Positions 1-19,034 of a stretch of 64,000 nucleotides of DNA are shown in pieces. The notes beneath the pieces are model-generated. The model worked only from the letters and a program-made list of their open reading frames with translations. It was not told where the DNA came from and ran no database searches. Made by a program: the position numbers and the translations under genes. The stretch covers positions 1,674,001-1,738,000 of the forward strand of contig NZ_JACBZY010000001.1 of NCBI RefSeq assembly GCF_013408685.1, in the 5' to 3' direction. Positions within the stretch are counted from its first letter, which is position 1. Every line of letters starts with the position of its first letter. This DNA comes from Schumannella luteola. Its GTDB lineage: Bacteria; Actinomycetota; Actinomycetes; Actinomycetales; Microbacteriaceae.

Positions 1-1692
1 GCAGTTCGGCTCGACTTCCGCCCGATCGGCGACGTGTGCGCGATTGGTGCGGCTGAGCGTCAGCTGCAGGGAAGCGAGCTGATGGCGGGCGCCGTGGCGT
101 CGTGGCAGCCGACCCTCTGCACGGCGAAGGGCGGCGACGCCTACACGATCCTCTCCGGCACGGAATCCGATGCCCTCGCGATCGCGAACGGCGCCAACTC
201 CGGCCCGATGGCGCTGTCATCTCGTCCGCTCCAGGGCGACATCGAGGACGACCTCCAGTACGCGCCGGTCGCGCTGACCGGGCTCGCGATCTCGTTCGCC
301 ATCGATCGCCAGCCCAGCCTGAGCGGCTCGACCCCCGACGAGTACCTCGAAAGGGCGAAGCTGCCGTTCACGAGCATGAACCTGACGCCGCGACTCGTCG
401 CGAAGCTGCTCACCAGCTCGTACCGCGATGCGCTGCCCTACTTCTCCGACCGCTCGCACATCGCGAAGAATCCACGGAACATCGCTTTCGACCCCGACTT
501 CCAGGCGATCAACGACCCGGAATGGAAGTACCAGGCGATCGCCACCCCCGCGATCGCCGACGCTCTCGTCCCGCAGGGACGCTCCGACTCCGCGTGGGCC
601 ATCTGGGCATACGTCATGTCCGATCAGGACGCCCGCGACTTCCTCAGCGGCAAGCCCGATCCGTGGGGCATGACCGTGAACAAGTGGGCGTCGGACTCGG
701 TCGACTTCGCACCGCGGGGCGAGGGTGATCAGACGCTCGCCATCACCTATCCCAACGACACGTTCCCGAAGGCGGACCCGGTCGAGACCGCCGAATCCGC
801 GACGGGTGGTCCGATCAATCTGGTCACCTGGCGACCCTTCGTCAACGACCTCGACACCTCCGCGTACAAGACGCTGCGCGGCGACGGCCAGGTGCTCGGA
901 GGATGGAATGCGCAGGCAGCGCCTCCTCAGTACGACAAGACCGGTCGCGACCTCCCCGGCGCTCAGGCGGTCATCGGCGTCACCGACACGTCGGCTGCGT
1001 CGCGCTACCAGACCATCACGGCCTCCCTGCGCAATGCGGCGGGCAAGTTCGTCGCACCGAGCGCGGAATCGATGCTGGCGGCGGCGGCGGCGATGACCGC
1101 GACGCCGACTCAGCGTCAGGTCTACTCGCTCGACAACACCTCAGCGGCCGCAGCCGCCGCCCCGACCGCCTACCCTCTGACGGTCCCCGTCTACGCGGCC
1201 GTGAGCCCGAAGATGTCCGATGCGACCCTGCGAGCGAGCTTCGCCGCCTTCATCCGCTATGCCGTATCGGATGCGGCGCAGACGACCGGACAAGGGGTCG
1301 GACAGCTCCCCGAGGGCTACGCACCACTGCCGCAGGGCTGGCGCGACCAGGCGCTCGCCGCTGCCGCGAAGATCCAGGCCGGCACGACGGCCACGCAGCC
1401 GACCGACGCCTCGGGCGACGGCTCGCTCGCTTCGCCCGGCTCCGACTTCGGGTCAGCGGATGCGGGCTTCGGCTCGGCTGGCGACGGATTCGGCTCGCCC
1501 GACGCGTCCGGCGCGGCCGGCACGAGCGACCCGGCGGCGTCCGGCGATCTCGCGAGCTCCCTCTCCGCCTCCCGCACCCCGGCCGATCCGAAGACCGGCG
1601 GCCTCGACTCGGTCGTGCCGCTCAGTCTCCTGGCCGGCCTCCTCGGCGCCCTCGCGGTGCCCGGCATCTCGCTCTTCCGGAGACGCCTCTGA
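1..1692 (+). CDS. Secreted PBP-like (PstS-fold) surface protein, C-terminal part
   Basis: The reading frame is open to the first base, so the N-terminus and signal peptide lie outside the window; the GTG at 34 is only an internal candidate. The segment reading LTPRLVAKLLTSSY resembles the loop of phosphate-binding PstS proteins in which Lt..lv.kI is conserved, so a periplasmic-binding-protein fold is likely but not certain. The C-terminal third is Ala/Gly/Ser-rich linker. The end (from about 1585) reads DPKTG, then a hydrophobic stretch and an Arg-rich tail, which has the layout of a cell-wall sorting signal with a degenerate motif, or simply a membrane anchor. It is followed 116 bases later by another PBP-like gene. 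Its role in phosphate or other ligand capture is inferred. Confidence 0.7.
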   Translation, partial: AVRLDFRPIGDVCAIGAAERQLQGSELMAGAVASWQPTLCTAKGGDAYTILSGTESDALAIANGANSGPMALSSRPLQGDIEDDLQYAPVALTGLAISFAIDRQPSLSGSTPDEYLERAKLPFTSMNLTPRLVAKLLTSSYRDALPYFSDRSHIAKNPRNIAFDPDFQAINDPEWKYQAIATPAIADALVPQGRSDSAWAIWAYVMSDQDARDFLSGKPDPWGMTVNKWASDSVDFAPRGEGDQTLAITYPNDTFPKADPVETAESATGGPINLVTWRPFVNDLDTSAYKTLRGDGQVLGGWNAQAAPPQYDKTGRDLPGAQAVIGVTDTSAASRYQTITASLRNAAGKFVAPSAESMLAAAAAMTATPTQRQVYSLDNTSAAAAAAPTAYPLTVPVYAAVSPKMSDATLRASFAAFIRYAVSDAAQTTGQGVGQLPEGYAPLPQGWRDQALAAAAKIQAGTTATQPTDASGDGSLASPGSDFGSADAGFGSAGDGFGSPDASGAAGTSDPAASGDLASSLSASRTPADPKTGGLDSVVPLSLLAGLLGALAVPGISLFRRRL

Positions 1693-1696
1693 TCCC

Positions 1697-1735
1697 GATC
1701 TTGGCGGGGCACGCTGCACCGGACTGGGATCCGGC
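1697..1735 (+). other. Possible intercistronic hairpin
   Basis: GC-rich inverted repeat with arms CGGGGC and GCCCCG lies just after the stop of the first gene. There is no T tract, so it is more likely an RNA processing or stabilising hairpin than a factor-independent terminator. Confidence 0.3.
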
Positions 1736-1808
1736 GCCCCGCACCAAGCCGCGAACGACCGACTGGGACGTGCGCGGAACCCACCCTGAGACAAAGGACA
1801 GCACTCCC

Positions 1809-2939
1809 TTGAAGATCAAGAAGATCGCGGCCTTCGCCGCGGTCGCTGCGGTGGCCGTCGCCGGCTCCGCGCTCGTCGCCCCCGCCTTCGCGGAGCCGGT
1901 CTCGAACAGCTATGTGCTGGTCGGTTCCGACACGCTGCAGGATTCCGCCAACGCTCTCATCAACGGCACCGACATCTCCGGCTCGCTCGTGCGCGTCACC
2001 ACCGGAAACGGCGCCACGCTCGGCTCGTTCGACGCGTTCGGATCCCCTGCGGTCCAGACCAAGCCCAACGGCGCCTTCTTCGGCCGTCCCGGTGGCTCCG
2101 GCGCGGGAGTCACCGCTCTGCGCGCCTCGATCACCGGCGTCAACTACTCCGCCACGACCAGCCCGAACGTGAAGGCCGTCGCGATCACCAATCAGGTCGA
2201 CATCGCGCGCTCCTCGAGTGCGCCCGGCTCGAACGCCAATGCTGACGGCAAGCTCCTCTACTACCCGTTCGCGCGTGACGCGGTGGGCTACGCCTACAAG
2301 GGCGGCAATGCGTCGTGGGCCAACCTCAGCGCTGCCCAGCTCCGTCAGATCTATGACGGCACCCTGACCAACGTCGGCGGCGCTGACATCAAGCCTCGCC
2401 TTCCTCAGACGGCTTCGGGCACCCGCAGCTTCTTCCTGGGTGCCCTCGGCTACACCGCGGTCAACAGCGTCTACAGCGCGCCGGCCGTGAACGACAACGG
2501 CAACGTCACGGCCGAGAACGACGCGACCGTGCTCAACGCCGGCGAGATCATCCCCTTCTCGGTGGCGAGCTGGGTCGCTCAGGCCAACGGCGTCTCGGGT
2601 GTCAACAGCACCACCGGCGCGTCGCTGGGCAGCGCGGTCACCGGCGTCGTCCCCGTGACCGGCACCGCTCCGGCGCTCGAGGCGAACCCGACCTACTACG
2701 CCGACGCGAAGTTCGGTCGTGACACCTTCCTGGTCGTCGAGCGCTCGCGCGTCCAGCAGAACTTCACGGGCGGCCGCGGCAACTACGACGCGACGCTCGC
2801 GCGTCTGTTCGACCCGACCAACCCGCGCAGCCTGATCAACTACGGCTCGACTCCGAACAGCGCCGGCGCGGTCAAGACCGCCTACGGCTTCCTCCCGACG
2901 GCGAACACCACGCCGCAGCCCGCGTTCGTCACGCTCTGA
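1809..2939 (+). CDS. Secreted PstS-like substrate-binding protein
   Basis: 376 residues. The TTG start is chosen because AAAGGA sits about ten bases upstream (1793-1798) and the first residues form a clear signal peptide (MKIKK, an Ala/Val-rich core, cleavage near AFA-EP). The mature part begins with VLVGSDTLQDSANAL, similar to the G-SDT opening of PstS-type phosphate-binding proteins, and carries DIARSSSAPG and ARDAVGYAYKGG, typical of the ligand-binding lobes of that family. There is no lipobox, so it is probably released or wall-associated rather than a lipoprotein. It stands 19 bases before the WxL-domain gene, so the two are probably co-transcribed. A PBP-like fold is well supported. The ligand (phosphate or other) is inference. 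Confidence 0.75.
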   Translation: MKIKKIAAFAAVAAVAVAGSALVAPAFAEPVSNSYVLVGSDTLQDSANALINGTDISGSLVRVTTGNGATLGSFDAFGSPAVQTKPNGAFFGRPGGSGAGVTALRASITGVNYSATTSPNVKAVAITNQVDIARSSSAPGSNANADGKLLYYPFARDAVGYAYKGGNASWANLSAAQLRQIYDGTLTNVGGADIKPRLPQTASGTRSFFLGALGYTAVNSVYSAPAVNDNGNVTAENDATVLNAGEIIPFSVASWVAQANGVSGVNSTTGASLGSAVTGVVPVTGTAPALEANPTYYADAKFGRDTFLVVERSRVQQNFTGGRGNYDATLARLFDPTNPRSLINYGSTPNSAGAVKTAYGFLPTANTTPQPAFVTL

Positions 2940-2958
2940 TCCTGAACGGAATCCCGAA

Positions 2959-4002
2959 ATGATCATCACCAAGCGACGCATCGCGATCGCCGGCGTCTTC
3001 GCCGTCGCGCTCGCCGCGATCAGCCCCGTCGCGGCGGCCAACGCCGCAACGGCCACCCCTGCCGGTTCTGCCGCGAAGTGGTACACCCTCAACGGCACCA
3101 CCCTTCAGCCGTACGCGGCTGACACGGTGCTCCACTGGGGCGACAGCCCTGTGGCCAGCCCCACCGCGACGTGGTCGAACTTCAAGGGTTCGACTGACGC
3201 CGAGGAGGTCGTGATGTTCCTCTCCAAGCCGGGCGAGGAGCGCACCATCACCAACTGGATCGCGACCGGAGCCGGCGCCTTCAAGCGCGGAACCAAGGAC
3301 GTCCAGCTGCCGAGCGCCGACCTGGCGAGCCTCACCAACGGCAACGCGGCGTCGATCCAGGCGATCGGTGGCGACTACAGCGTCGGCATCGCGTTCACCA
3401 AGAACACCGGCACGGCCATCGCGGACGGCGGCGTCATCTTCAACACCGTCCACATCGTCAAGGGCACCGACACCTACACCTTCGACTCGCCCGCCGAGTC
3501 GACCACGCCGACCGACCCGCCGGCCGGCACGCAGACCGCTTCGGTCGACGTCTCGGCGACGACCGTCGCGGCGCAGGATGGCGCGCTCGAGCTCTCGGTT
3601 CCTGCCGGCGCGAAGGCGACCCTCGGCACCGCGGCCCTGGTGAACGGTCTCTCGACCTCCACCGGAAAGCTCGGCTCGGTCACCATCAAGGACGGCCGCG
3701 TGTCGTCGACCCCCGGTTGGGACCTCACCAGCGGCGTCGCGAAGTTCAGCCTCACCGGTGGAACCTCGGCTGACGACATCGACGCCAAGCAGCTCGGTGT
3801 GAAGCCCCTCGTCACCTCCGGCCCCGCGGCCGCGGCGGCGGGAAACCAGGCCGGCACCGCCGGTGACAACAAGTTCGCGTCGGCTGCGGCCGGCACGAGC
3901 GGCACCAGCGTCGTCGACGCCGACCTCACCTTCGTCGCCCCGGCGAAGTCGAAGGCCGGCACGTACACCTCCAAGGTGACGCTGACGCTCGTCTCGAAGT
4001 AA
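2959..4002 (+). CDS. WxL-domain surface protein
   Basis: 347 residues with a signal peptide (MIITKRR, hydrophobic core, cleavage near ANA). A short repeat-poor N-terminal domain (to about 170) is followed by a Pro/Thr linker (STTPTDPPAG). The C-terminal domain carries a W-D-L triplet at residues 254-256 and ends in DADLTFVAPAKSKAGTYTSK followed by a beta-strand. That layout matches WxL domains, which in Firmicutes bind peptidoglycan non-covalently, although the second WxL motif (YxxxLTW) is only partly kept. It is followed by a DUF916-type gene, the usual partner of WxL proteins. WxL systems are unusual in Actinobacteria, so the context supports the call more than the motif alone does. Confidence 0.65.
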   Translation: MIITKRRIAIAGVFAVALAAISPVAAANAATATPAGSAAKWYTLNGTTLQPYAADTVLHWGDSPVASPTATWSNFKGSTDAEEVVMFLSKPGEERTITNWIATGAGAFKRGTKDVQLPSADLASLTNGNAASIQAIGGDYSVGIAFTKNTGTAIADGGVIFNTVHIVKGTDTYTFDSPAESTTPTDPPAGTQTASVDVSATTVAAQDGALELSVPAGAKATLGTAALVNGLSTSTGKLGSVTIKDGRVSSTPGWDLTSGVAKFSLTGGTSADDIDAKQLGVKPLVTSGPAAAAAGNQAGTAGDNKFASAAAGTSGTSVVDADLTFVAPAKSKAGTYTSKVTLTLVSK

Positions 4003-4009
4003 CACTCTC

Positions 4010-4052
4010 GAGGCCCTGGGCGGGCTCGTCGTCGCACGCGACGGCGGGCCTC
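4010..4052 (+). other. Strong intercistronic hairpin
   Basis: GAGGCCC (4010-4016) pairs with GGGCCTC (4046-4052), with an inner GTCG/CGAC stem. No T run follows. It may act as a Rho-type pause, partial terminator or mRNA-stabilising element between the WxL gene and the DUF916-type gene. Confidence 0.4.
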
Positions 4053-4136
4053 GTCCGGGGCCTCAGCCCTGCCCGATCCACCCCGGCCGCACTTAAGTCG
4101 GCGTTCACCTGACGGACGCCGCGCGGCCAATGACCG

Positions 4137-5246
4137 ATGGCTTCATACACTGTGCCCACCTGGACCTCCGCCGCGAATCCGGCCGCGCGCCTCGCCGCCG
4201 CCGCTCTCGCGCTCGTCGCCGCCGCCACGCTGCTCAGCGTCGCCCCGGCCGTCTCCGCCCGCGCGGACGACACGATCGGCATCTCGGGCGCGCCCGCGAA
4301 GGCCGGCGCCGCCGATGGCCGCACCCGCTTCACCTACCAGGTCGGCCCGGGTCAGCACCTCGACGACGAGTACCTGGTGAAGAACACCGGCACCACCCGC
4401 CAGACGGTCACCGTCTTCGGCACCGACGCCTTCAACACCGACGACGGCTCCTGGGGCCTGCTGCCCACCGACGACACTGCGAAGGATGTCGGCGGCTGGG
4501 TCACCTTCGGCGGCCAGCCCCGCGCCACCCTCGACCTCGCGCCGGGCGAGTCCCGCGCGGTCGCCTTCGCGGTCGACGTGCCCGCGGATGCCGGCCCCGG
4601 CGACCACGCCGGCGGCGTCGTGCTCTCGGCCGTCAGCCCCGACGGGCAGGTGCTCGTCGACCGCCGCGTCGCGACGCGCCTCTACGTGCGCGTGCCCGGT
4701 GACATCCAGGCGGCCCTCACCGTCAGCTCGATGAAGGCCGACTACGGCTACAGCTGGAACCCGCTCGACGGCACCGTGAAGATCGACATGACGGTGAAGA
4801 ACACCGGCAACGTCGCCCTCGGCGGCCTCGCGGTCGTCACCCTGCGCACCTGGTTCGGCTTCGGCCTCTCCTCGCCCGAGGCCCGCCCCGACTTCCCCGA
4901 GCTGCTGCCCGGCAACGTGCGCGAGCTGAGCGTCACCCTGCACGGCGTTCCCGCGCTGGGCTACCTCGAGCCGACGATCACGCTCGCTCCGCAGATCTCG
5001 CCCGACGCCATCCAGCCTCCGTCGCTCGTCACGACCGAGCGCAGCACCTCGCTCGCGGCCGTGCCCTGGCTGCTGCTGGCGGTGCTGCTCGTGATCGGTC
5101 TCGTCATCCTCGTCACCCGCCTCCGCGCCCGCGCCGATGCGCGCCGCGCCGAGGCGTGGATGGCGCACGTCGCCGAGCAGGCCCGCAGCGAGGCCTCGTC
5201 GCCCCGACAGAGCGGCGCCCCCGAGAAGCTCGGAGCCGACCGATGA
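4137..5246 (+). CDS. DUF916-like WxL partner, membrane-anchored
   Basis: 369 residues: N-terminal signal segment (about 17-43, ending SARA-DD), an extracellular region, one transmembrane helix (about 303-328) and a basic cytoplasmic tail. The region holds FTYQVGPGQHLDDEYLVKNT and a second KNTGNVALGG domain, matching DUF916/DUF3324-type WxL-interacting proteins made of two Ig-like domains. In known WxL loci these proteins bind the WxL partner and peptidoglycan and tether it to the membrane, which fits the gene just upstream. ATG at 4137 is the first start giving a signal segment; no good ribosome-binding site is seen. The stop overlaps the next start by ATGA (5243-5246), so translation is probably coupled. 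Confidence 0.7.
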   Translation: MASYTVPTWTSAANPAARLAAAALALVAAATLLSVAPAVSARADDTIGISGAPAKAGAADGRTRFTYQVGPGQHLDDEYLVKNTGTTRQTVTVFGTDAFNTDDGSWGLLPTDDTAKDVGGWVTFGGQPRATLDLAPGESRAVAFAVDVPADAGPGDHAGGVVLSAVSPDGQVLVDRRVATRLYVRVPGDIQAALTVSSMKADYGYSWNPLDGTVKIDMTVKNTGNVALGGLAVVTLRTWFGFGLSSPEARPDFPELLPGNVRELSVTLHGVPALGYLEPTITLAPQISPDAIQPPSLVTTERSTSLAAVPWLLLAVLLVIGLVILVTRLRARADARRAEAWMAHVAEQARSEASSPRQSGAPEKLGADR

Positions 5247-6019
5247 AGCGGATGCTCACGGCAGCCCTGCTGGTCGGCGCGGCAGCCGTCGCGATCACCG
5301 CGGCTGCTCCCGTCGCGGCCTTCGCGGCCGACGACCTGAACGGCGGCGGCGACTACCCGATCTCGGTCACGGTCACCGACGACGGCTCGACGCCGACGGG
5401 CGGATCCGACTCCGGCGGCTTCGGCGGCAGCGACTCGGGCGGCTTCGGCGGCTCGGGATCGGGCTCGTCGGGCTTCGGCTCGACCTCGGGCTCCGGCTCG
5501 ACGGCAGGTGGCGGCGACGCCGTCGACACGGGCGCGACTCCCGACGGCAAGCCCGCGGCCTCGGCCGCGGCCGACGCGGCCTTCTCGATCGGCGGGATGC
5601 GTCTCGGCTACCAGATCTCGCCGCTGCCGAACCGGGGCGCGCTCAGCACCGCGGTCACGCTGCGCAACGGCACATCCTCGGCCATGTCGGTCAAGCTGCG
5701 CCTCTGGATGACCGGTCCCTTCGGCAACCGCATCGGCGGCCCGGTCGAGCGCACCGTCGTGCTCGCCCCGAAGACCGACCGCACCGTGCGCACGCAGGTC
5801 GAGGGCGTCGGGCAGTGGACCTTCGTCACCTCGCACCTCGAGGCGACCCCGCCGAAGTCGGTCGACGGCATCGACCTGGCCAAGCTGACCCGCGAGCAGT
5901 CGATCGTGATCGCGCCGTGGGCGATCCTGCTCGGCGTGATCGTCGCCGCGGGCGCCGGCTGGGGTATCTCCGCCGCGGTCCGTCGCCCTCGCGTCGCCGT
6001 GCAGGAGGCCTTCGCATGA
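5243..6019 (+). CDS. Secreted Gly/Ser-rich membrane-anchored accessory protein
   Basis: 258 residues. It starts at the ATG that overlaps the previous stop and has a clear signal peptide ending AFA-AD. Residues about 45-95 are a low-complexity Gly/Ser/Phe linker with GGFGGSDSGGFGGSGSG-like repeats. A beta-rich domain of about 110 residues follows (ISPLPNRGALSTAVTLRNGT), resembling the TVTLRN strands of DUF916-type Ig domains, and then a C-terminal helix (IVIAPWAILLGVIV) anchors it. No family is recognised with certainty. The tight overlaps with the genes on both sides suggest a third wall or membrane component of the same surface complex. Confidence 0.6.
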   Translation: MKRMLTAALLVGAAAVAITAAAPVAAFAADDLNGGGDYPISVTVTDDGSTPTGGSDSGGFGGSDSGGFGGSGSGSSGFGSTSGSGSTAGGGDAVDTGATPDGKPAASAAADAAFSIGGMRLGYQISPLPNRGALSTAVTLRNGTSSAMSVKLRLWMTGPFGNRIGGPVERTVVLAPKTDRTVRTQVEGVGQWTFVTSHLEATPPKSVDGIDLAKLTREQSIVIAPWAILLGVIVAAGAGWGISAAVRRPRVAVQEAFA

Positions 6020-7011
6020 GCGTGATCGAGGCCCCCGCTCCCGCGTCACCTGCCGGCGGGGTGCCGGTCGAGGCGCCGCCCGCCCAACCCGGATACACCG
6101 CGTACCCGCCCGTGCCGCGACCCCCGCGCCGCGTGCCGAAGCCGCCCGTGCTGCTCGCCCCGCTGTCGCCCGCGCAGGCCGTGTCGCGCAGCGTGATCAT
6201 CACCGCGGTGCTCCTGCTCTTCGCCTTCCTGCTCCAGGTGGTCGTGCTCTCGCAGCTGCAGCACCTCGAGTCGCAGCAGCGCCTCCGCGACGCCTTCCGC
6301 GCGCAGCTCGCCGCCGGCACCGCGCCGGTCAGCGAAGCCGACTACACCGGCAAGATGCTGCGCTCGACCTCGCCGGTCGGCATCCTCTCGATCCCGCAGA
6401 TCGGGGTGAACGAGGTGCTCGTCGAGGGCACCGACTCCGACACCCTCAAGACCGGCGCCGGCCACCGCCGCGACACCCCGCTGCCGGGCCAGCCCGGTGT
6501 CAGCGTGCTCATCGGGCGCGCGGCGGCGTACGGCGGACCGTTCTCGCACATCCAGGAGCTCGCCCCCGGCGACCGCTTCACGGTGCGCACCGGCCAGGGC
6601 AGCAGCACCTTCGAGGTCATCGGCGTGCGCTATGCCGGCGACCCGACGCCGGCCGCGCTGGCCCGCGGCGGCAGCCGGCTCGTGCTGCAGAGCGCCCGCG
6701 GTCCCGCCTTCGCGCCGAACGGCGTCGTCTACGTGGATGCGCGCCTCGTCAGCCCGGTGATGGATGCGGGCGCCCGCTGGACCACCACGGGAGCGCTGCC
6801 TCCGGAGGAGCGCGCGCTGCAGGCCGACACCCGCGAGGTCTGGAGCCTGGTCTTCGCCCTGCAGTTCCTGCTCGCCGCTCACCTGGGCGCCGTCTGGGCT
6901 CGCCGCCGCGTCGGCAGCCGCAAGACCTGGCTCGTCGGAGCCCCCGTCGTCGCACTCGCCGTGCTGCTCGCCGCCGATCGCATCGTGCCGCTGCTGCCGA
7001 ACGTGCTCTGA
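6016..7011 (+). CDS. Sortase-fold protein with catalytic residues apparently missing
   Basis: 331 residues. A Pro-rich cytoplasmic N-terminus is followed by one helix (about 57-80), an extracellular sortase-like domain (about 118-245) and two C-terminal helices. Sortase landmarks are plain: IPQIGVNEVLVEGT, then GQPGVSVLIGRAAAYGGPF (about 160-177), then a LxxGD turn. In active class D/E/F sortases the middle motif reads aGHR with the catalytic His, but here it is IGRA. The strand that should carry TC (LTLvTC) reads LVLQSARG (221-228), and the following Arg strand reads VVYVDARL. His, Cys and Arg all appear replaced, so it may be a pseudo-sortase acting as a scaffold. Both C-terminal helices are extra. 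Start overlaps the previous stop by ATGA. Confidence 0.7.
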   Translation: MSVIEAPAPASPAGGVPVEAPPAQPGYTAYPPVPRPPRRVPKPPVLLAPLSPAQAVSRSVIITAVLLLFAFLLQVVVLSQLQHLESQQRLRDAFRAQLAAGTAPVSEADYTGKMLRSTSPVGILSIPQIGVNEVLVEGTDSDTLKTGAGHRRDTPLPGQPGVSVLIGRAAAYGGPFSHIQELAPGDRFTVRTGQGSSTFEVIGVRYAGDPTPAALARGGSRLVLQSARGPAFAPNGVVYVDARLVSPVMDAGARWTTTGALPPEERALQADTREVWSLVFALQFLLAAHLGAVWARRRVGSRKTWLVGAPVVALAVLLAADRIVPLLPNVL

Positions 7012-7033
7012 ATCCATCCCGAGGAGATCTCTC

Positions 7034-8212
7034 ATGACTGATGCGCACCGCGACCCGGTGACCGAGGTCCTGCCGGCGACCCCGGCCCCGGCGGCCGCGA
7101 ACCCGGCGGCCGCGAACCCGGCGACCGGGACCGCCGCCGCTCCGACCGGGTCCGCTCCGACCGCGACCGCCGAGGCCCCGGCGCTGGTCGAGCCCGCGAC
7201 CGGTTTCGTGCCGCCCGTCCCGACCCCGGTGCCCGCCGCGGCCGCGTACCCCGGCTACGCCTCCACCGGCTTCGGCGGCGCGGAGGCCACCTCGCCCGTC
7301 GCCGACGCGCGGCTCGAAGCCGACCCGCACTACGCCTCCGCGGCGCCGTCGGTCATCCCCGGCTACGGCGACGCCGGCTTCAGCGGCGCGTACCAGGCCG
7401 CCGCGGCCGCGGCGTATCCCGAGACCCCGCGCGAGCCTCTCGCGATGCTCGAAGCGCGCGGCATCACCGCCTGGTTCGGCGACCACCAGGTGCTCGATCG
7501 TGTCTCGCTCACCATGCCGGCCGGCCAGATCACCTCGCTGATCGGCCCGTCGGGATGCGGCAAGTCGACGTTCCTGCGCATCCTCAACCGCATGCACGAG
7601 CTGGTGCCCTCGGCGAGCCTCGCCGGTGAGGTGCTGCTCGACGGTGACGACATCTACGAGCCGCAGAAGCGCCTCACCGACGCCCGCAAGGCGATCGGCA
7701 TGGTCTTCCAGAAGCCGAACCCCTTCCCGGCGATGTCGATCTACGACAACGTGATCGCCGGGCTCAAGCTCACCGGCATCCGGGCCGATCGCGCCCGCAA
7801 GGACTTCCTCGTCGAGACCTCGCTGCAGAAGGCGGGCCTCTGGAAGGAGGTGCGCGATCGTCTGCGCGCGCCCGGCGGCGGACTCTCCGGCGGCCAGCAG
7901 CAGCGTCTCTGCATCGCCCGCTCGCTCGCGGTCCAGCCGCGCGTGCTCCTCATGGACGAGCCCTGCTCGGCTCTCGACCCGACCTCGACCCGTGTGATCG
8001 AGGAGACGATGCTCGAGCTCGCCAGCGAGGTCACGATCGTCATCGTCACGCACAACATGCAGCAGGCGCAGCGCGTCTCGAGCCAGTGCGCGTTCTTCCT
8101 CGCCGGCGCCGGCAAGCCCGGCGGCATCGTCGAGCACGGGGCGACGGATGCGATGTTCGGCGACCCGCAGGACGAGCGCACCGCCGATTACGTCAACGGC
8201 CGCTTCGGCTGA
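7034..8212 (+). CDS. pstB: PstB-type phosphate ABC transporter ATPase with long N-terminal extension
   Basis: 392 residues, about 130 more than usual PstB. The ABC domain starts near residue 138 and has Walker A GPSGCGKST, the PstB-like FQKPNPFPAMSIYDNV Q-loop region, signature LSGGQQQR, Walker B LLMDEPCSALDP and the H-loop VTHNMQQA, all intact. In PstSCAB this subunit powers phosphate import. Residues 1-137 are Ala/Pro/Thr-rich with no known domain. The ATG is preceded by GAGGAG, 22 bases after the sortase-like gene. No pstC or pstA permease lies in the window; they may sit upstream, or the ATPase may drive a different membrane partner here. The assignment to PstB-like is secure, its role in classical phosphate uptake is less so. 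Confidence 0.8.
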   Translation: MTDAHRDPVTEVLPATPAPAAANPAAANPATGTAAAPTGSAPTATAEAPALVEPATGFVPPVPTPVPAAAAYPGYASTGFGGAEATSPVADARLEADPHYASAAPSVIPGYGDAGFSGAYQAAAAAAYPETPREPLAMLEARGITAWFGDHQVLDRVSLTMPAGQITSLIGPSGCGKSTFLRILNRMHELVPSASLAGEVLLDGDDIYEPQKRLTDARKAIGMVFQKPNPFPAMSIYDNVIAGLKLTGIRADRARKDFLVETSLQKAGLWKEVRDRLRAPGGGLSGGQQQRLCIARSLAVQPRVLLMDEPCSALDPTSTRVIEETMLELASEVTIVIVTHNMQQAQRVSSQCAFFLAGAGKPGGIVEHGATDAMFGDPQDERTADYVNGRFG

Positions 8213-8409
8213 TCGGCGACGCGGCCGACCCGCACACGACGGGGGATGCGGTCATAGTGGTCACGGGCGATCTCGCCGAGGGTGCGTGCGATGCAGATCG
8301 ACGCTTTCCGTCGCATCCGCCGTCCTGCATTGGCGGAATCCGCACTCATCGCCACCGATCGCGGCACCGCGTTGTCGGAATCGTTCAACGGTTGCCGCAT
8401 CCCCGTCGG
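8213..8409. other. Intergenic region, no gene seen
   Basis: About 200 bases between the PstB-like gene and the FAH gene. No convincing open frame, repeat or terminator with a T tract was found; it presumably carries the promoter of the next gene. Confidence 0.4.
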
Positions 8410-8415
8410 TAGGAT
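8410..8415 (+). promoter_or_regulatory. -10 box TAGGAT for a leaderless FAH gene
   Basis: TAGGAT lies six bases before the GTG at 8422 and no ribosome-binding site is visible, so the transcript probably begins at or very near the start codon. Confidence 0.5.
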
Positions 8416-8421
8416 CGTCGG

Positions 8422-9198
8422 GTGAGAGTCGCGCGCTTCAGCACCGGAGACGACGACCCGCGTTTCGGAGTCATCGATGACGACGACATCGTCGTCCTCA
8501 AGGCCGACCCGATGTTCGCGGGCTACGAGACGACGGGAGAGCGCGTCCCCCTCGCGGATGCTCGCCTTCTGGCGCCGGTCATCCCGCGCTCGAAGGTCGT
8601 CTGCGTCGGCATGAACTACGGCGCCCACGCGAAGTCGATGGACTGGGACACCGACGGCGACCCGCTCATCTTCCTCAAGCCGAACACCGCGGTGGTCGGC
8701 CCTGGCGACCCGATCCGCATCCCGCCGGTGGAGGGGCGCATCGTGCACGAGGGCGAGCTCGCCGTCGTGATCGGCCGCGTCGCCAAGCAGGTCAAGGCCG
8801 CCGACTGGCAGTCGATCGTCTTCGGCTACACGATCGCGAACGACGTCTCGGCCCGCGACCAGATGTTCGCCGACGGCCAGTGGGCGCGCGCGAAGGGCTA
8901 CGACACCTTCTGCCCGCTCGGCCCGTGGATCGACACCGAGATCGACCCGAGCGACCTGCAGATCACGACCTACGTCGATGGCGAGCAGCGCCGCAGCGGC
9001 CGCACGAGCGAGATGCTGCACAAGCTGCCCGAGCTCATCGAATTCATCACCGACGTGTGGACGCTGCTGCCCGGCGACGTCATCGTCACCGGAACCCCCG
9101 ACGGTCTCGGCAGCTTCGAGCACGGCCAGACGGTCGACATCGACATCGAGGGCCTCGGCCGTCTCTCCAACCCGGCGCTGAACCGCGACCCGCGCTGA
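8422..9198 (+). CDS. Fumarylacetoacetate hydrolase-family protein
   Basis: 258 residues, the usual length for the short bacterial FAH-family enzymes that hydrolyse or isomerise acylpyruvate-like and related diketo acids using a bound Mg or Mn ion. Landmarks: VVCVGMNYGAHAKS, FLKPNTAVVGPGDPI, the metal-binding HEGELAVVIG, GYTIANDVSARD, and TGTPDGLG near the end. The GTG start is placed by the -10 box six bases upstream. The true substrate cannot be told from sequence. An FAH-family gene near gltX is, to my knowledge, a common actinobacterial arrangement; here an MFS gene and a lipoprotein gene lie between them. Confidence 0.85.
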   Translation: MRVARFSTGDDDPRFGVIDDDDIVVLKADPMFAGYETTGERVPLADARLLAPVIPRSKVVCVGMNYGAHAKSMDWDTDGDPLIFLKPNTAVVGPGDPIRIPPVEGRIVHEGELAVVIGRVAKQVKAADWQSIVFGYTIANDVSARDQMFADGQWARAKGYDTFCPLGPWIDTEIDPSDLQITTYVDGEQRRSGRTSEMLHKLPELIEFITDVWTLLPGDVIVTGTPDGLGSFEHGQTVDIDIEGLGRLSNPALNRDPR

Positions 9199-9237
9199 TG
9201 CCGACGCCGCCCGTGATCGCGGCGACCCGGTAGCGCC

Positions 9238-10635
9238 GTGAGCTCGAGCCCGTCCGAGCTGCCGATGGCGGTGGATGCGGTGCGCGTGCACCGGCGCACC
9301 CGCTCGGTCCTGGTGGCCGGTCAGGTGCTCTCCGGGCTCGGCATGGGGTCGACGCTGTCGGCGGGGGCGCTGCTGGCGACGCTCGTCTCCGGCAGCGAGG
9401 CCTGGTCGGGCTCGGCGACGACCGGATCGACCGTCGGATCGGCGCTGGCGGCGATCCCGCTCGCGGCGCTCGCCCAGCGCGCCGGGCGCTCGTCGGCGCT
9501 CGCCTCGGGTGCGCTGACGGCGGCGCTCGGGGGAGTGCTCGGCATCCTCGCCGCGCTCTGGTCGCTGTTTCCGCTGCTGCTGATCGCCTTCGTGCTGATC
9601 GGCGTCGGAACGGCGGTGAACCTGCAGTCCCGCTTCGCCGCGACCGATCTCTCGGCGCCGTCGACGCGCGGACGCGACCTGTCGATCGTGGTGTGGGCGA
9701 CGACGCTCGGCGCGGTGGTCGGCCCCAATCTCATCTCGGCGGGCAATCGGCTCGGTCTCTCGCTCGGCCTCCCCGAGCTCGCGGGTCCCTTCCTGCTGAC
9801 GATCGCGGCGCAGGCGGTCGCAGCGGTGATCTACGCGCTCGGACTCCGCCCCGACCCGCTGCGGCTGGCCCGCGCTCTCGCGCACGCGACCGCCGCTCGT
9901 GCTGCCGCCGATCCCGCCGCCGATCTCGCGTCGTCGTCCGAGGTGGATGCGGCGGGCTCGCCCGCCGGACCGCCGAAGTCCGCCGAGCCGCCGTCCTCCG
10001 CGCGCGCGTCGACACCGGCATCCCGCCCCGCCCCCGCCATCGATCGCGACGATCCGCGCTCGGCTCGCATCGGCATCGCGATCCTCGCGCTGAGTCACGC
10101 GACGATGGCCTCGGTCATGGCGATGACGCCGGTGCACCTCACGCACAGCGGCGCGACGCTCGAGATCGTCGGACTCACCATCAGCCTGCACGTCGCGGGC
10201 ATGTACGCGCTCTCGCCGCTCTGGGGCGTGCTCGCCGACCGACTCGGACGCACCGCGGTGATCGCGCTCGGCCAGGGGACGCTGCTTCTCGCTCTGGTGC
10301 TGGCGGCGCTCGGCAGCGAGGTCGAGGGCGCGGTCGTCGCCGCGCTCATCCTTATCGGGCTCGGCTGGAGCGCCTCCACCGTCTCGGCCTCGGCGATGGT
10401 CTCCGCCTCCACCAGTGCCGACCGGCGCACCCGCACCCAGGGCCGCGCGGATCTGGTGATGAGCTCCTCGGGCGCGCTCGGCGGCGCCCTTGCCGGCCCC
10501 GTGCTCGCCGGCCTCGGCTACCCGGGTCTCGCGCTCACCGCGATCGCCCTCGTCGCCGCGGCCGTCGCCCTCCTGCTCTGGCGCGCCCGCGCCGCCGGGG
10601 ACGTCGCGGTCATCAGCGGATCCGCCGCTCGCTGA
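9238..10635 (+). CDS. MFS transporter
   Basis: 465 residues with about twelve hydrophobic segments in two bundles. A central Ala/Pro/Ser-rich loop (about 215-265) separates the halves, as in major facilitator carriers. The second half has LWGVLADRLGRTAVI, which matches the conserved cytoplasmic loop motif G...DR.GR. The substrate is unknown; the general shape fits a drug-efflux or metabolite-export carrier. GTG 9238 is the first start that yields the N-terminal basic segment and first helix. It follows the FAH gene by 39 bases and may be co-transcribed with it. Confidence 0.8.
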   Translation: MSSSPSELPMAVDAVRVHRRTRSVLVAGQVLSGLGMGSTLSAGALLATLVSGSEAWSGSATTGSTVGSALAAIPLAALAQRAGRSSALASGALTAALGGVLGILAALWSLFPLLLIAFVLIGVGTAVNLQSRFAATDLSAPSTRGRDLSIVVWATTLGAVVGPNLISAGNRLGLSLGLPELAGPFLLTIAAQAVAAVIYALGLRPDPLRLARALAHATAARAAADPAADLASSSEVDAAGSPAGPPKSAEPPSSARASTPASRPAPAIDRDDPRSARIGIAILALSHATMASVMAMTPVHLTHSGATLEIVGLTISLHVAGMYALSPLWGVLADRLGRTAVIALGQGTLLLALVLAALGSEVEGAVVAALILIGLGWSASTVSASAMVSASTSADRRTRTQGRADLVMSSSGALGGALAGPVLAGLGYPGLALTAIALVAAAVALLLWRARAAGDVAVISGSAAR

Positions 10636-10720
10636 CCCGACCCCGCTCTCGCCCCACCCGACCGCGCCCTGCGCGCTCGGTACCCCGGACGCGGGGGTCC
10701 CCGCCGGCGGTCGTCGCACC

Positions 10721-10726
10721 TAGCCT
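10721..10726 (+). promoter_or_regulatory. -10 box TAGCCT, leaderless start
   Basis: TAGCCT six bases before GTG 10733 with no ribosome-binding site; this supports that start for the lipoprotein gene. Confidence 0.5.
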
Positions 10727-10732
10727 GGCCCC

Positions 10733-11608
10733 GTGCGAACCGGATATCGGCTCATGATCTCGGTGGCGGCCCTCGTCGCCGTCATGGTGGGGATGAGCGG
10801 ATGCTCCTCCGCCGGCTCGGATGACGATTCCGAGAGCTGGGGTGTCTTCGTGCTCGACGGCGCCTCCGCTCAGCCCAGCGTCATGCCGAGCGATGACCCG
10901 GCCGGAGACGATCCCGACCTCACGATGCCGACGCCCAACTCGCGGCCGTCGCGAGTGCCCGCCGCCCCGTTCGCGCCGCACACGGCTTCGTGTCCTCGCG
11001 CGCTGCCGGTGCACCCCTCCCTGCCGCGCCGCGCCGGCTACATCACCTGGCGTGACGGGCGCGTGACGTCGAGCACGACCAGCCGGGGCGGGCAGCCGGT
11101 CTGGCGCGCGGCCCCGCAGTGGCCGTCGAGCCGCCGACTCGGCACGCCGATGACCTTCGTCGCGCAGATCGCGCTGAACGACGATGTGGTGCCGGGCGGC
11201 GCCGGCCACACGGCCTACCTGTTCGTGAGCGCCGCACCCGGGCTGCCGACCTGGGACCCGGAGCAGGGCGAGAGCGCGGTCGTCATCCAGCCCGGCGGCT
11301 CGCCGGTCGTGCCGACGAGGCCGCTGCGGACCGGGCCGACGCGGCACGACGAGGTCGAGGTCGCGAAGCTGGCGACTCAGCTCGATCCGGCTTTCGTGCC
11401 CGAAGCGGATGGCGGGGTCGGCGATGACGTCTGGTCCAGCATCGCGCCCGAGAAGGTGGGCGGCACCCCGGCCTTCCTGCAGTACGACGAGTTCCCCGAG
11501 TGCGGTCGCGTGGACCGCCTCGCTCTGCAGCTCGAGCTCGGCACCGGCGTCGGCTACGTGTTCGTGACGGACGATCTCGCCTACGGCAAGTACGTCGAGC
11601 AGTACTGA
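10733..11608 (+). CDS. Lipoprotein with a DUF1963/YwqG-like domain
   Basis: 291 residues. A short lipoprotein signal ends in MSGC with the acceptor Cys, followed by an acidic Ser/Pro-rich linker. Two stretches recall DUF1963 (YwqG family): [17 protein letters not shown] followed by HTAYLFVS, like the FLaQinl...LlyfF core, and [13 protein letters not shown], like the kvGGyP.wiQ motif, with a later LALQLE strand. Members of this family are of unknown biochemical role and are usually cytoplasmic, so a lipid-anchored, exported form is unusual. It lies between an MFS carrier and gltX. The domain call rests on motif recall only and is moderately sure. Confidence 0.55.
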
Positions 11609-11622
11609 GCCCCCGCCCGCAC

Positions 11623-11628
11623 TACCCT
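11623..11628 (+). promoter_or_regulatory. -10 box TACCCT ahead of gltX
   Basis: TACCCT ends eight bases before ATG 11637, favouring this ATG over the in-frame TTG at 11628, which overlaps the box. Confidence 0.45.
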
Positions 11629-11636
11629 TGACCTCG

Positions 11637-13130
11637 ATGTCAGCCCTGCCTTTCACCACCGCCACCGGACCTGACGTCAAGGTCCGCTTCTGCCCCTCGC
11701 CCACCGGCACCCCGCACGTGGGAATGGTGCGCACGGCGCTCTTCAACTGGGCCTACGCCCGGCACACGGGCGGCAAGCTCGTGTTCCGCGTCGAAGACAC
11801 CGATGCGGCGCGCGACAGTGAGGAGAGCTACGAGCAGCTGGTCGAGGCGCTCACCTGGCTCGGCCTCGACTGGGACGAGGGCGTCGAGAAGGGCGGACCG
11901 AACGGCCCGTACCGCCAGTCGCAGCGCGGCGACATCTACCAGGACGTGATCCAGCGGCTGAAGGATGCGGGCAAGGTCTACGAGAGCTTCGTCACCCCCG
12001 AGGAGATGGAGGCGCGCAACCGTGCCGCCGGTCGCGACCCGCGTCAGGGCTACGACAACCACGAGCGCGATCTGACCGACGAGCAGCGCGCGGCCTTCCG
12101 AGCCGAGGGCCGGCAGCCGAGTCTGCGCCTGCGGGTGCCCGACAGCGACCTGTCGTACGAGGACCTGATCCGCGGCGACGTGACCTTCCCGGCGGGCAGC
12201 TTCACCGACTTCGTGGTGGTGCGGCCCAACGGCGCCCCGCTCTACACGCTCGTCAATCCGGTGGATGACGCGCTCATGGGCGTCACGCACGTCTTCCGCG
12301 GCGAGGACATCATGTCGTCGACGCCCCGGCAGATCGCGCTGTACCTGGCGCTGATCGAGATCGGGGTGGCCGACTTCATCCCGCGCTTCGCGCACATGCC
12401 CCTCGTCTACGGCGAGGGATCGAAGAAGCTCTCGAAGCGCGACCCCGAGTCGAACCTGTTCCACCACCGCGATCGGGGGTTCATCCCCGAGGGGCTGCTG
12501 AACTACCTGGCGCTGCTGGGCTGGTCGATCGCGGCCGATCGTGACGTGTTCACGACGGCCGAGTTCATCGAGGCCTTCGACATCAGGGATGTGAACCCGA
12601 ACCCGGCCCGCTTCGACCAGAAGAAGGCCGACTCGATCAACGGCGACCACATCCGGATGCTGCAGCCCGACGATTTCGAGGCGCGGATCGCGCCGTACCT
12701 GGCCGGCTACGTCGAGAACCCGCCGACCGCCGCGCAGCAGGCGATCCTGCGTGAGGCGGCGCCGCTCATCCAGGAGCGCATCATCGTGCTGGGGGAGTCG
12801 CGCGACATGCTCGCGTTCCTGTTCACGCCCGATGCCGAGATCGAGTTCGCGCCCGACGCGCTGCCCAAGAACGCCGACGAGGCGAAGCTCGTGCTCGAGT
12901 CGTCGACGGCGGCGCTCGAACAGCTGACCTCGTTCGGGCGGGTGGAGATCGAGGAGGCGCTGCGCGTCGCCCTGATCGAAGGCGCCGGACTCAAGCCGCG
13001 CGTCGCCTTCGGCCCGCTGCGCACCGCCGTCAGCGGGCGCCGCATCAGCCCGCCGCTCTTCGAGTCGATGGAGATCCTCGGCAAGGAGTCGACGCTCGCG
13101 CGCCTCGAACGCTTCCGCCAGACGCTGTAG
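11637..13130 (+). CDS. gltX: Glutamyl-tRNA synthetase
   Basis: 497 residues, normal for bacterial GluRS, which charges tRNA-Glu with glutamate in the cytoplasm. The class I signature appears as SPTGTPHVG near the N-terminus (HIGH variant) and [10 protein letters not shown] (KMSKS variant). [17 protein letters not shown] and [22 protein letters not shown] are typical of the catalytic domain, and the C-terminal helical anticodon-binding half is complete. ATG 11637 is chosen because the promoter -10 box lies eight bases upstream; the in-frame TTG at 11628 would sit inside it. The rRNA operon starts about 550 bases downstream. If Gln-tRNA is made through the amidotransferase route in this organism, this enzyme could also be non-discriminating; the sequence alone does not decide it. 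Confidence 0.95.
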
Positions 13131-13153
13131 CCGGCGGGCCGTTGGCTCGGCGC

Positions 13154-13186
13154 CATCCCGGAAAACCGGGCGACACGCCCGGGATG
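13154..13186 (+). terminator. Inverted repeat after gltX
   Basis: CATCCCGG pairs with CCGGGATG around a 17-base loop, 23 bases after the gltX stop. No T tract, so termination is uncertain. A partly related stretch containing GGAAAACCGGGC recurs near 46853-46892. Confidence 0.4.
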
Positions 13187-13219
13187 CGCGGATGATTCGC
13201 GCCGGCCCCGCGACGTACG

Positions 13220-13225
13220 TAAAGT
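13220..13225 (+). promoter_or_regulatory. Candidate rRNA operon promoter (-10 TAAAGT)
   Basis: TAAAGT with a weak TTCGCG-like -35 eighteen bases upstream (13196-13201) sits about 460 bases before the 16S gene. The best-looking -10 in the leader, but the -35 is poor; other promoters such as near TATGAT (13576-13581) are possible. Confidence 0.3.
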
Positions 13226-13231
13226 AATCCC

Positions 13232-13681
13232 TCGTCAGCCCAAAGGAGCGGGACACGGAGAGCGGCTCAGCCGCCCGGATCCTGGCCTCAAGAGCGACAA
13301 GCCCCCATCTGAACTACTGGATGGGGTTCGCCACTCCGACGAGTCGCTGACCTGATCAGCGCGCGGTGCTTCGCAGGGTCTTTACCCCCGCAAGCCGGCT
13401 GCCCACCGGGATGGCTTGGTAGACGATCGCCTTGGATCGAACCCGCGAGGGTGAGATCTTCGAGCATCCGATCCTTGAGAACTCAACAGCGTGCACTATG
13501 TCAAATGCCAAATAACCTCGGCTCCGCGATTTCGGTCGTGGGGTGAGAGATTCCTTTGGATTGACGGATTGTCAGTATGATGATCCTTTCAGTCAGATCA
13601 AACTCGTCTGGTTGTCGCGTTTTCCCGCGATGATCGGGCAAAAGATTTGTCAGTCGATTTCGGTCGGCTGGCTGTCATTCA
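13232..13681 (+). promoter_or_regulatory. rRNA leader with boxA-like antitermination sequence
   Basis: Long transcribed leader of the rRNA operon with no gene. Around 13474-13496 it carries CTTGAGAACTCAACAGCGTG, the recurrent actinobacterial rRNA leader motif thought to serve as the boxA antitermination signal for NusB/S10. A related copy lies in the 16S-23S spacer. The AT-rich part just before the 16S gene probably forms the 16S processing stem. Confidence 0.6.
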
Positions 13682-18735
<5,054 letters not shown>

Positions 18736-18844
18736 ACACACAAAAGTTTTGTTGCTCGCGTCCACTTTGTGGTTCCCGATTTACGGTCGGGATACCGCAC
18801 ACCTGAACATCGTTTCAGGTCTGCAGACACGCTAAATCAATAGT
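18736..18844 (+). other. 23S-5S spacer with processing arm
   Basis: No gene. Positions 18754-18775 pair with the spacer before the 23S gene to enclose the 23S rRNA in a long helix. Confidence 0.7.
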
Positions 18845-18963
18845 GTTTCGGCGGCCATAGCGAAGGGGAAACGCCCGGTTACATTCCGAACCCGGAAGCT
18901 AAGACCTTCTGCGCCGATGGTACTGCGAGGGGGACCTCGTGGGAGAGTAGGACACCGCCGGAC
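18845..18963 (+). rRNA. rrf: 5S ribosomal RNA
   Basis: About 119 bases. The ends GTTTCGGCGG and CCGCCGGAC pair; the interior has the usual CGAACCCGGAAGCTAAG loop and GATGGTACTGC. Last gene of the rRNA operon. Confidence 0.95.
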
Positions 18964-18973
18964 TTCTTTCGAG

Positions 18974-19009
18974 AGAAGCCCACCCGTTTTCACGGGTGGG
19001 CTTCTTTTG
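18974..19009 (+). terminator. Factor-independent terminator of the rRNA operon
   Basis: AGAAGCCCACCCG and CGGGTGGGCTTCT form a 13-bp stem with a short loop, followed by TTTTGTTT. A textbook strong terminator just after the 5S gene. Confidence 0.95.
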
Positions 19010-19034
19010 TTTAACGCGCCGTCGAGGCGGCCCG

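Follow-up and report, generated by a model that had tools for sequence, protein, structure and literature searches.

Background

Gram-positive cells have no periplasm bounded by an outer membrane in which soluble binding proteins could be held. The locus considered in the present work combines elements of three types of described system, namely the PstSCAB importer, the WxL/WxLIP clusters of Firmicutes and the class E sortases. A published reading (PMC10599100) sees WxLIP as an Ig-like pair by which WxL is held on peptidoglycan. For the PHO box of Streptomyces, two papers describe 11-nt repeats and the sequence GTTCACC (PMC4415409, PMC6283541).

A preliminary description had reported a tight cluster of genes of Pst type and of wall-attachment type. 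The analysis shows that this cluster is a real and conserved Pst-type importer, equipped with tethering proteins and a dead sortase.

Organization of the locus

The window, i.e. the whole 64-kb stretch of DNA analyzed (G000:C1:1674001-1738000, from a host genome of 3.75 Mb in a single contig), cuts the cluster. Its position 1 falls inside gene B, and pstC, pstA and the gene for a membrane-tethered PstS (A) were found 5' of it. Over its full length the operon has the order pstC-pstA-A-B-C-D-E-F-G-pstB, in which A is a PstS, B a giant protein of PstS fold, C a third binding protein, D a WxL-like protein, E its DUF916/WxLIP partner, F a membrane-anchored protein and G a dead sortase; no kinase or regulator gene lies within it. 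Positions are given below for the window (all features on the plus strand) and for locus L008 (stops excluded), the window coordinate being the L008 coordinate minus 7001.

The genes for PstC, PstA, PstB and PstS are encoded together, as a PstSCAB-type set. PstC (L008 1776-2759), PstA (L008 2770-4275) and the PstS protein A (L008 4275-5906) exceed their NCBIfam cut-offs, and the PstB-type ATPase (window 7034..8212; L008 14035-15210), which carries an N-terminal extension of about 138 aa, scores 332.6 bits against TIGR00972, just below the cut-off of 343.2. The preliminary description had joined a WxL system to a lone PstB-like ATPase; with pstC, pstA and a further PstS upstream, that picture gives way to a whole importer with an inserted WxL-type module.

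Most of the individual assignments were borne out by gene calls and profile matches, which confirm seven adjacent same-strand genes of the two types. The two PstS-fold or binding proteins that had been recognized are B (window 1..1692 for the C-terminal part, with a C-terminal membrane helix; L008 6144-8690, start at about window -857), identified by a weak match to the PstS profile TIGR00975 (E 1.7e-10) and by a model of its orthologue, and C (window 1809..2939, TTG start; L008 8810-9937), a soluble protein with 31.3 bits against PBP_like_2 (cut-off 27). The DUF916-type partner E (window 4137..5246; L008 11138-12244) has a membrane helix and a cytoplasmic tail; it remains under the cut-off of WxLIP_PGBD (24.1 bits against 27.3), and PF06030 is matched at E 0.01 or better by 53 of the 54 aligned members of its family (53 of the 60 listed E proteins and that of this genome). 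The anchored accessory protein F (window 5243..6019; L008 12244-13017) shows a signal-like N-terminus together with a C-terminal helix, and its relatives resemble the C-terminal part of E. The presumed pseudo-sortase G (window 6016..7011; L008 13017-14009) shows the sortase fold of PF04203 (49.7 bits) without the catalytic His, Cys and Arg, and possesses both an N-terminal and a C-terminal membrane helix.

Two further claims were sustained in part. The WxL domain of the secreted protein D (window 2959..4002; L008 9960-11000) finds weak PF13731 matches in relatives, but D of this genome has no Pfam match and its WxL-like C-terminal domain retains the first W-x-L motif only. Three ATGA overlaps had been counted among the middle genes; two are in the window, between E and F (5243-5246) and between F and G (6016-6019), but the third joins pstA to A outside it. 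D and E are separated by 134 bases.

A complete 16S-23S-5S rRNA operon is located at window 13682-18963, about 5.5 kb 3' of pstB. A candidate second copy in the same genome (match at C1:3750733; L039, G000:C1:3735000-3754700) was rejected. It repeats window 3071-19020 in inverted orientation with 99.2% identity, contains indel-rich patches and lies where the contig ends; it is probably an assembly artefact and was excluded from all counts.

Conservation of gene order

Among 59 genomes, relatives of G at E 1e-50 or better occur in eight, this one counted, the remaining matches reaching about 1e-14 at best. All eight loci have pstC-pstA-A-B-C-G-pstB in order, six of them with D and E, and F was detected in five. 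A motif scan of genome contigs yielded 409 relatives, the best 80 of which were kept as named loci; these are mostly from Microbacteriaceae, together with Propionibacteriaceae bins and one Planotetraspora. Counts were restricted to the 55 fully flanked loci, the other 25 being left uncounted. Every part from A through pstB is present in 51 to 55 of these 55, the order B-D-E-G-pstB is kept in 49, and an unbroken A-B-C-D-E-F-G-pstB run is found in 44. Across 296 genomes drawn from the whole phylum, a G match at 1e-20 is found in 12, this one counted; in eight of the other 11 the gene is Pst-linked, five of these eight being outside the class, and D or E accompanies it in two of the eight.

The search made without the motif filter gave 16 loci, of which 14 share the order pstC-pstA-A-B-G, with or without D-E-F. 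The exceptions are L145, where G is on the strand opposite to the pst genes, and L147, which lacks B and has a different order. The preliminary description had proposed a gene-neighbourhood search and had named loss of gene order as grounds against the cluster; the order is instead kept in relatives (49/55, and 14/16 for the core), and the arrangement, being conserved, is not due to chance. Since the order is kept and D-E-F is variable, A, B and G form the core together with the Pst set, and D-E-F counts as an accessory module; it is missing in many distant loci and therefore not essential to the core. Where it is absent, as in L045, L046 and L142-L147, C is often longer; in L045 and L046 Pfam recognizes Ig-like repeats in this protein, and by eye C of L142 and L144 are alike and that of L143 is not. 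That the preliminary description could not match the cluster to a described system agrees with the open-licence titles and abstracts listed (WxL, DUF916, PstS, inactive sortase, PhoP and Microbacterium themes), in which no description of it was found; the one listed paper that joins WxL with PstS concerns Enterococcus faecalis.

A second importer beside the ordinary pst

All eight near-relative genomes which carry the system have two PstC proteins above cut-off, one ordinary and one in the system locus. Two PstC proteins above cut-off also occur in G017, G022 and G043, although these are without the system. In this genome a complete, separate pst locus does exist about 283 kb away, and the preliminary description had considered that such a locus might claim the ATPase; its PstB, however, belongs to another clade, and the pstB of the window closes the composite operon. 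The PstB tree drew on 28 out of 94 system loci that have pstB; these 28 rows separate from 21 others with support of 100/93, several branches being long. Among the others is L169 (G017:C1:424500-430500), a locus labelled ordinary and a second Pst locus of its genome, which is small and belongs to the same family; its PstB is placed as sister to the system clade.

Binding proteins and their anchors

In all 52 aligned sequences of A, the phosphate-site residues Ser38, Arg135, Asp137, Ser139 and Gly140 (E. coli numbering) are kept and Glu replaces Asp56. B is a protein of 849 aa. The predicted model of its Schumannella soli orthologue (pLDDT 84, pTM 0.80) has PstS as its best structural matches, with a TM of 0.77 by target length for M. 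tuberculosis PstS3, and extends several hundred residues beyond the PstS fold; 44 of the 45 listed B proteins were taken for the alignment. Across 66 sequences, C shows invariant motifs peculiar to it. By eye, no acid is present where Asp56 would align, and for this reason the ligand of C may be other than phosphate.

A C-terminal membrane helix is found in 40/40 A and 55/55 B proteins, among which lipobox-like motifs number none and one, respectively. The ordinary PstS proteins have a lipobox in 18 of 19 cases and a C-terminal membrane helix in none of the 19. The ends of A and B, a helix followed by a basic tail, are like those of sorting-signal proteins, and no shared sorting pentapeptide was seen before these helices among the matches listed.

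The proposed wall module and the PstS fusions

Of the dual Trp-x-Leu motif of PF13731, D keeps the first in 35/35 sequences, and the second is replaced; matches to this family are weak, in 8/35 relatives (best E 9e-4) and in 7/26 of the long D proteins, 26 of 29 listed having been aligned. When D was compared with solved structures, the matches were weak throughout, the best being to pilus-tip chains, pilin-like chains and the TasA fibre. The Pfam families of the E set do not include DUF3324 among the matches listed, and the C-terminal part of E resembles F. The assignment of D and E to the wall is drawn by analogy from the published reading of WxLIP (PMC10599100), and their location there would follow that precedent.

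In five of the best 80 of 409 relatives, all from Microbacterium, PstS and a D-type domain are joined in a single reading frame 3' of pstB. Pfam recognizes the PstS part in 5/5 of these fusions and WxL, weakly, in 1/5. Of 296 genomes from the phylum, 28 have DUF916 at E 0.001; the domain is therefore not confined to Firmicutes.

The cytoplasmic tail of E (window ~5130-5220) is conserved in relatives, with the consensus AxAWxxYTEAEARR, and is not accounted for by the known WxLIP design. Two more DUF916 (PF06030) genes, above cut-off, are present in the same genome at a distance from the operon (G000:C1:850174 and G000:C1:1116314).

Loss of catalytic residues in G

The best NCBIfam profile of G is that of class E sortase (65.5 bits against a cut-off of 160). 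The catalytic residues of an active sortase are His, Cys and Arg. Across the 16 Pst-linked loci, His and Cys are absent without exception, His being replaced by Arg in 15 and by Lys in one, and Cys by Ala, Gly, Ser or Thr; 15/16 have also lost the catalytic Arg. The three unlinked relatives of G all keep the three residues. The catalytic Arg is still present in L147, which fits a descent of G from an active sortase. The new Arg, Arg168, is invariant in 81/81 aligned G sequences, as is Asp241, a set selected partly by a motif containing Arg168, and the figures for residue loss rest on the 16 linked and three unlinked loci. A 3.4-kb contig filed as Stenotrophomonas maltophilia (L099) bears G and pstB of the actinobacterial system and is probably a contamination.

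Probable phosphate control

The GTTCACC core lies within 350 bases 5' of pstC in 9/20 loci, with 0/20 on the minus strand and a background of 0.074 per 350 bases; 11/20 of these upstream stretches are without it. Ordinary pstS has it in 17/19. Within 200 bases 5' of E it is present in 30/68 loci (none on the minus strand; background 0.046 per 200), the copy in the window being at 4103..4109, and 5' of B in 16/69 (one on the minus strand), the other tested genes having 0 to 3. When all offsets from -20 to 20 were compared, a second unit fitted best at -11 in the pstC, E and ordinary pstS sets. The two-unit scan 5' of pstC was weak, 2/20 loci beating all 100 shuffles and 8/20 having at most 7/100 shuffles as good; a strict two-unit box precedes pstC in 3/21 system loci, one of them (L118) by way of a faulty, overlong stretch; and exact GTTCA direct repeats precede E in 8/68. 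In this genome the second units are poor, the one 11 bases before the core at E matching at 3/7 positions by eye. Related loci are not independent in these counts. On these sequence motifs the importer probably belongs to the Pho regulon, which would place it under PhoP.

Proposed mechanism and alternatives

The genes themselves thus reveal a full pump, anchored binding proteins, phosphate-site residues in A, catalytic loss in G, a kept order, a separate PstB clade, PHO-box cores and PstS fusions. The reading which we regard as probable is that of a second, Pho-regulated importer of Pst type, with binding proteins anchored in membrane and wall and an inactive sortase serving as scaffold. PstC, PstA and PstB would form the pump, used when phosphate is scarce; A and B would be PstS-type proteins held on the membrane by C-terminal helices and not by lipid anchors, C would be soluble, and D, with its partner E and F, would attach binding proteins to the cell wall or present them there. 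What is caught at the wall, either phosphate or a compound bearing it, could then pass to A or B and on to the pump. G may be a constant component of the importer and would most likely act as a membrane scaffold upon which the binding proteins dock. A more elaborate version, to which we attach rather little weight, is a phosphate relay spanning the wall: under phosphate starvation, D and the PstS/D-type fusions would build arrays attached to the wall and perhaps strand-complemented, with E and F as chaperones; these arrays would capture phosphate outside the membrane and deliver it to A and B in their tethered form and on to the pump, the dead sortase having become a fixed transporter subunit. 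Because the structural matches of D are weak, the fibre idea is confined to this version.

A rather unlikely alternative concerns the substrate, which would be different from inorganic phosphate, for instance phosphate esters or wall-polymer fragments, with C as selector. An ordinary pst is already present in 8/8 genomes, the invariant motifs of C are its own and the PstS acid is missing from it, and B is much bigger than PstS; the phosphate-site residues kept in A, and transporter subunits which are PstC, PstA and PstB by profile, nevertheless speak for phosphate. It is also doubtful that the two gene sets are neighbours only, i.e. that a second Pst operon of ordinary kind encloses a WxL-type module independent of it, each working alone. 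D-E-F lies between C and G, not beside the operon, in 49/55 loci, five loci fuse PstS to a D-type domain, and an identical PHO-box core precedes pstC and E, although this same core gives E one of its own, several loci (L045, L046, L142-L147) have the core without D-E-F, and the genome has other DUF916 loci.

The importer with tethered binding proteins also has to be set against two readings that turn on E and G. A surface sensor, in which the binding proteins and G would signal external phosphate through the pump or the tail of E, could explain the conserved cytoplasmic tail and the fixation of a dead enzyme in the operon; with a complete pump retained, and an operon without kinase or regulator gene, we judge it improbable. 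That G should still be a sortase, or another transferase with a new active site, fixing A and B to the wall, seems to us very improbable indeed: His and Cys are lost in 16/16 linked loci and Arg in 15/16, and the matches listed share no sorting pentapeptide before the helices, even if the ends of A and B resemble those of sorting-signal proteins and Arg168 and Asp241 are invariant in the 81 sequences, a set chosen partly for that Arg.

Comparison with known systems

To the lack of an enclosed periplasm the system suggests one answer, namely binding proteins tethered to membrane and wall and coupled to a pump under phosphate control. It also offers a testable setting, phosphate starvation, for actinobacterial DUF916 and WxL-like proteins, and introduces a conserved family of catalytically dead sortases linked to ABC transport. 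Counts of pstS or pstB in soil actinobacteria should be treated with caution, as they can mix two clades.

With class E sortases G shares its best NCBIfam profile, and an intact relative (L148) has the same C-terminal helix part; G differs in the absence of His and Cys, in an Arg lost in 15/16, and in a gene tied to pst. As in the Firmicutes WxL/WxLIP clusters (PMC10599100), E consists of DUF916, a second domain and a C-terminal helix, and a WxL-like D adjoins it; yet D has one W-x-L motif, E has a conserved cytoplasmic tail, and the cluster is situated inside a Pst operon with binding proteins. The PstSCAB importer has in common with the system PstC, PstA, PstB, a PstS with phosphate-site residues and an upstream PHO-box core, whereas the system has three binding proteins, two of them on C-terminal helices instead of lipid, and seven genes between pstA and pstB, with D, E, F and G added and a PstB clade of its own.
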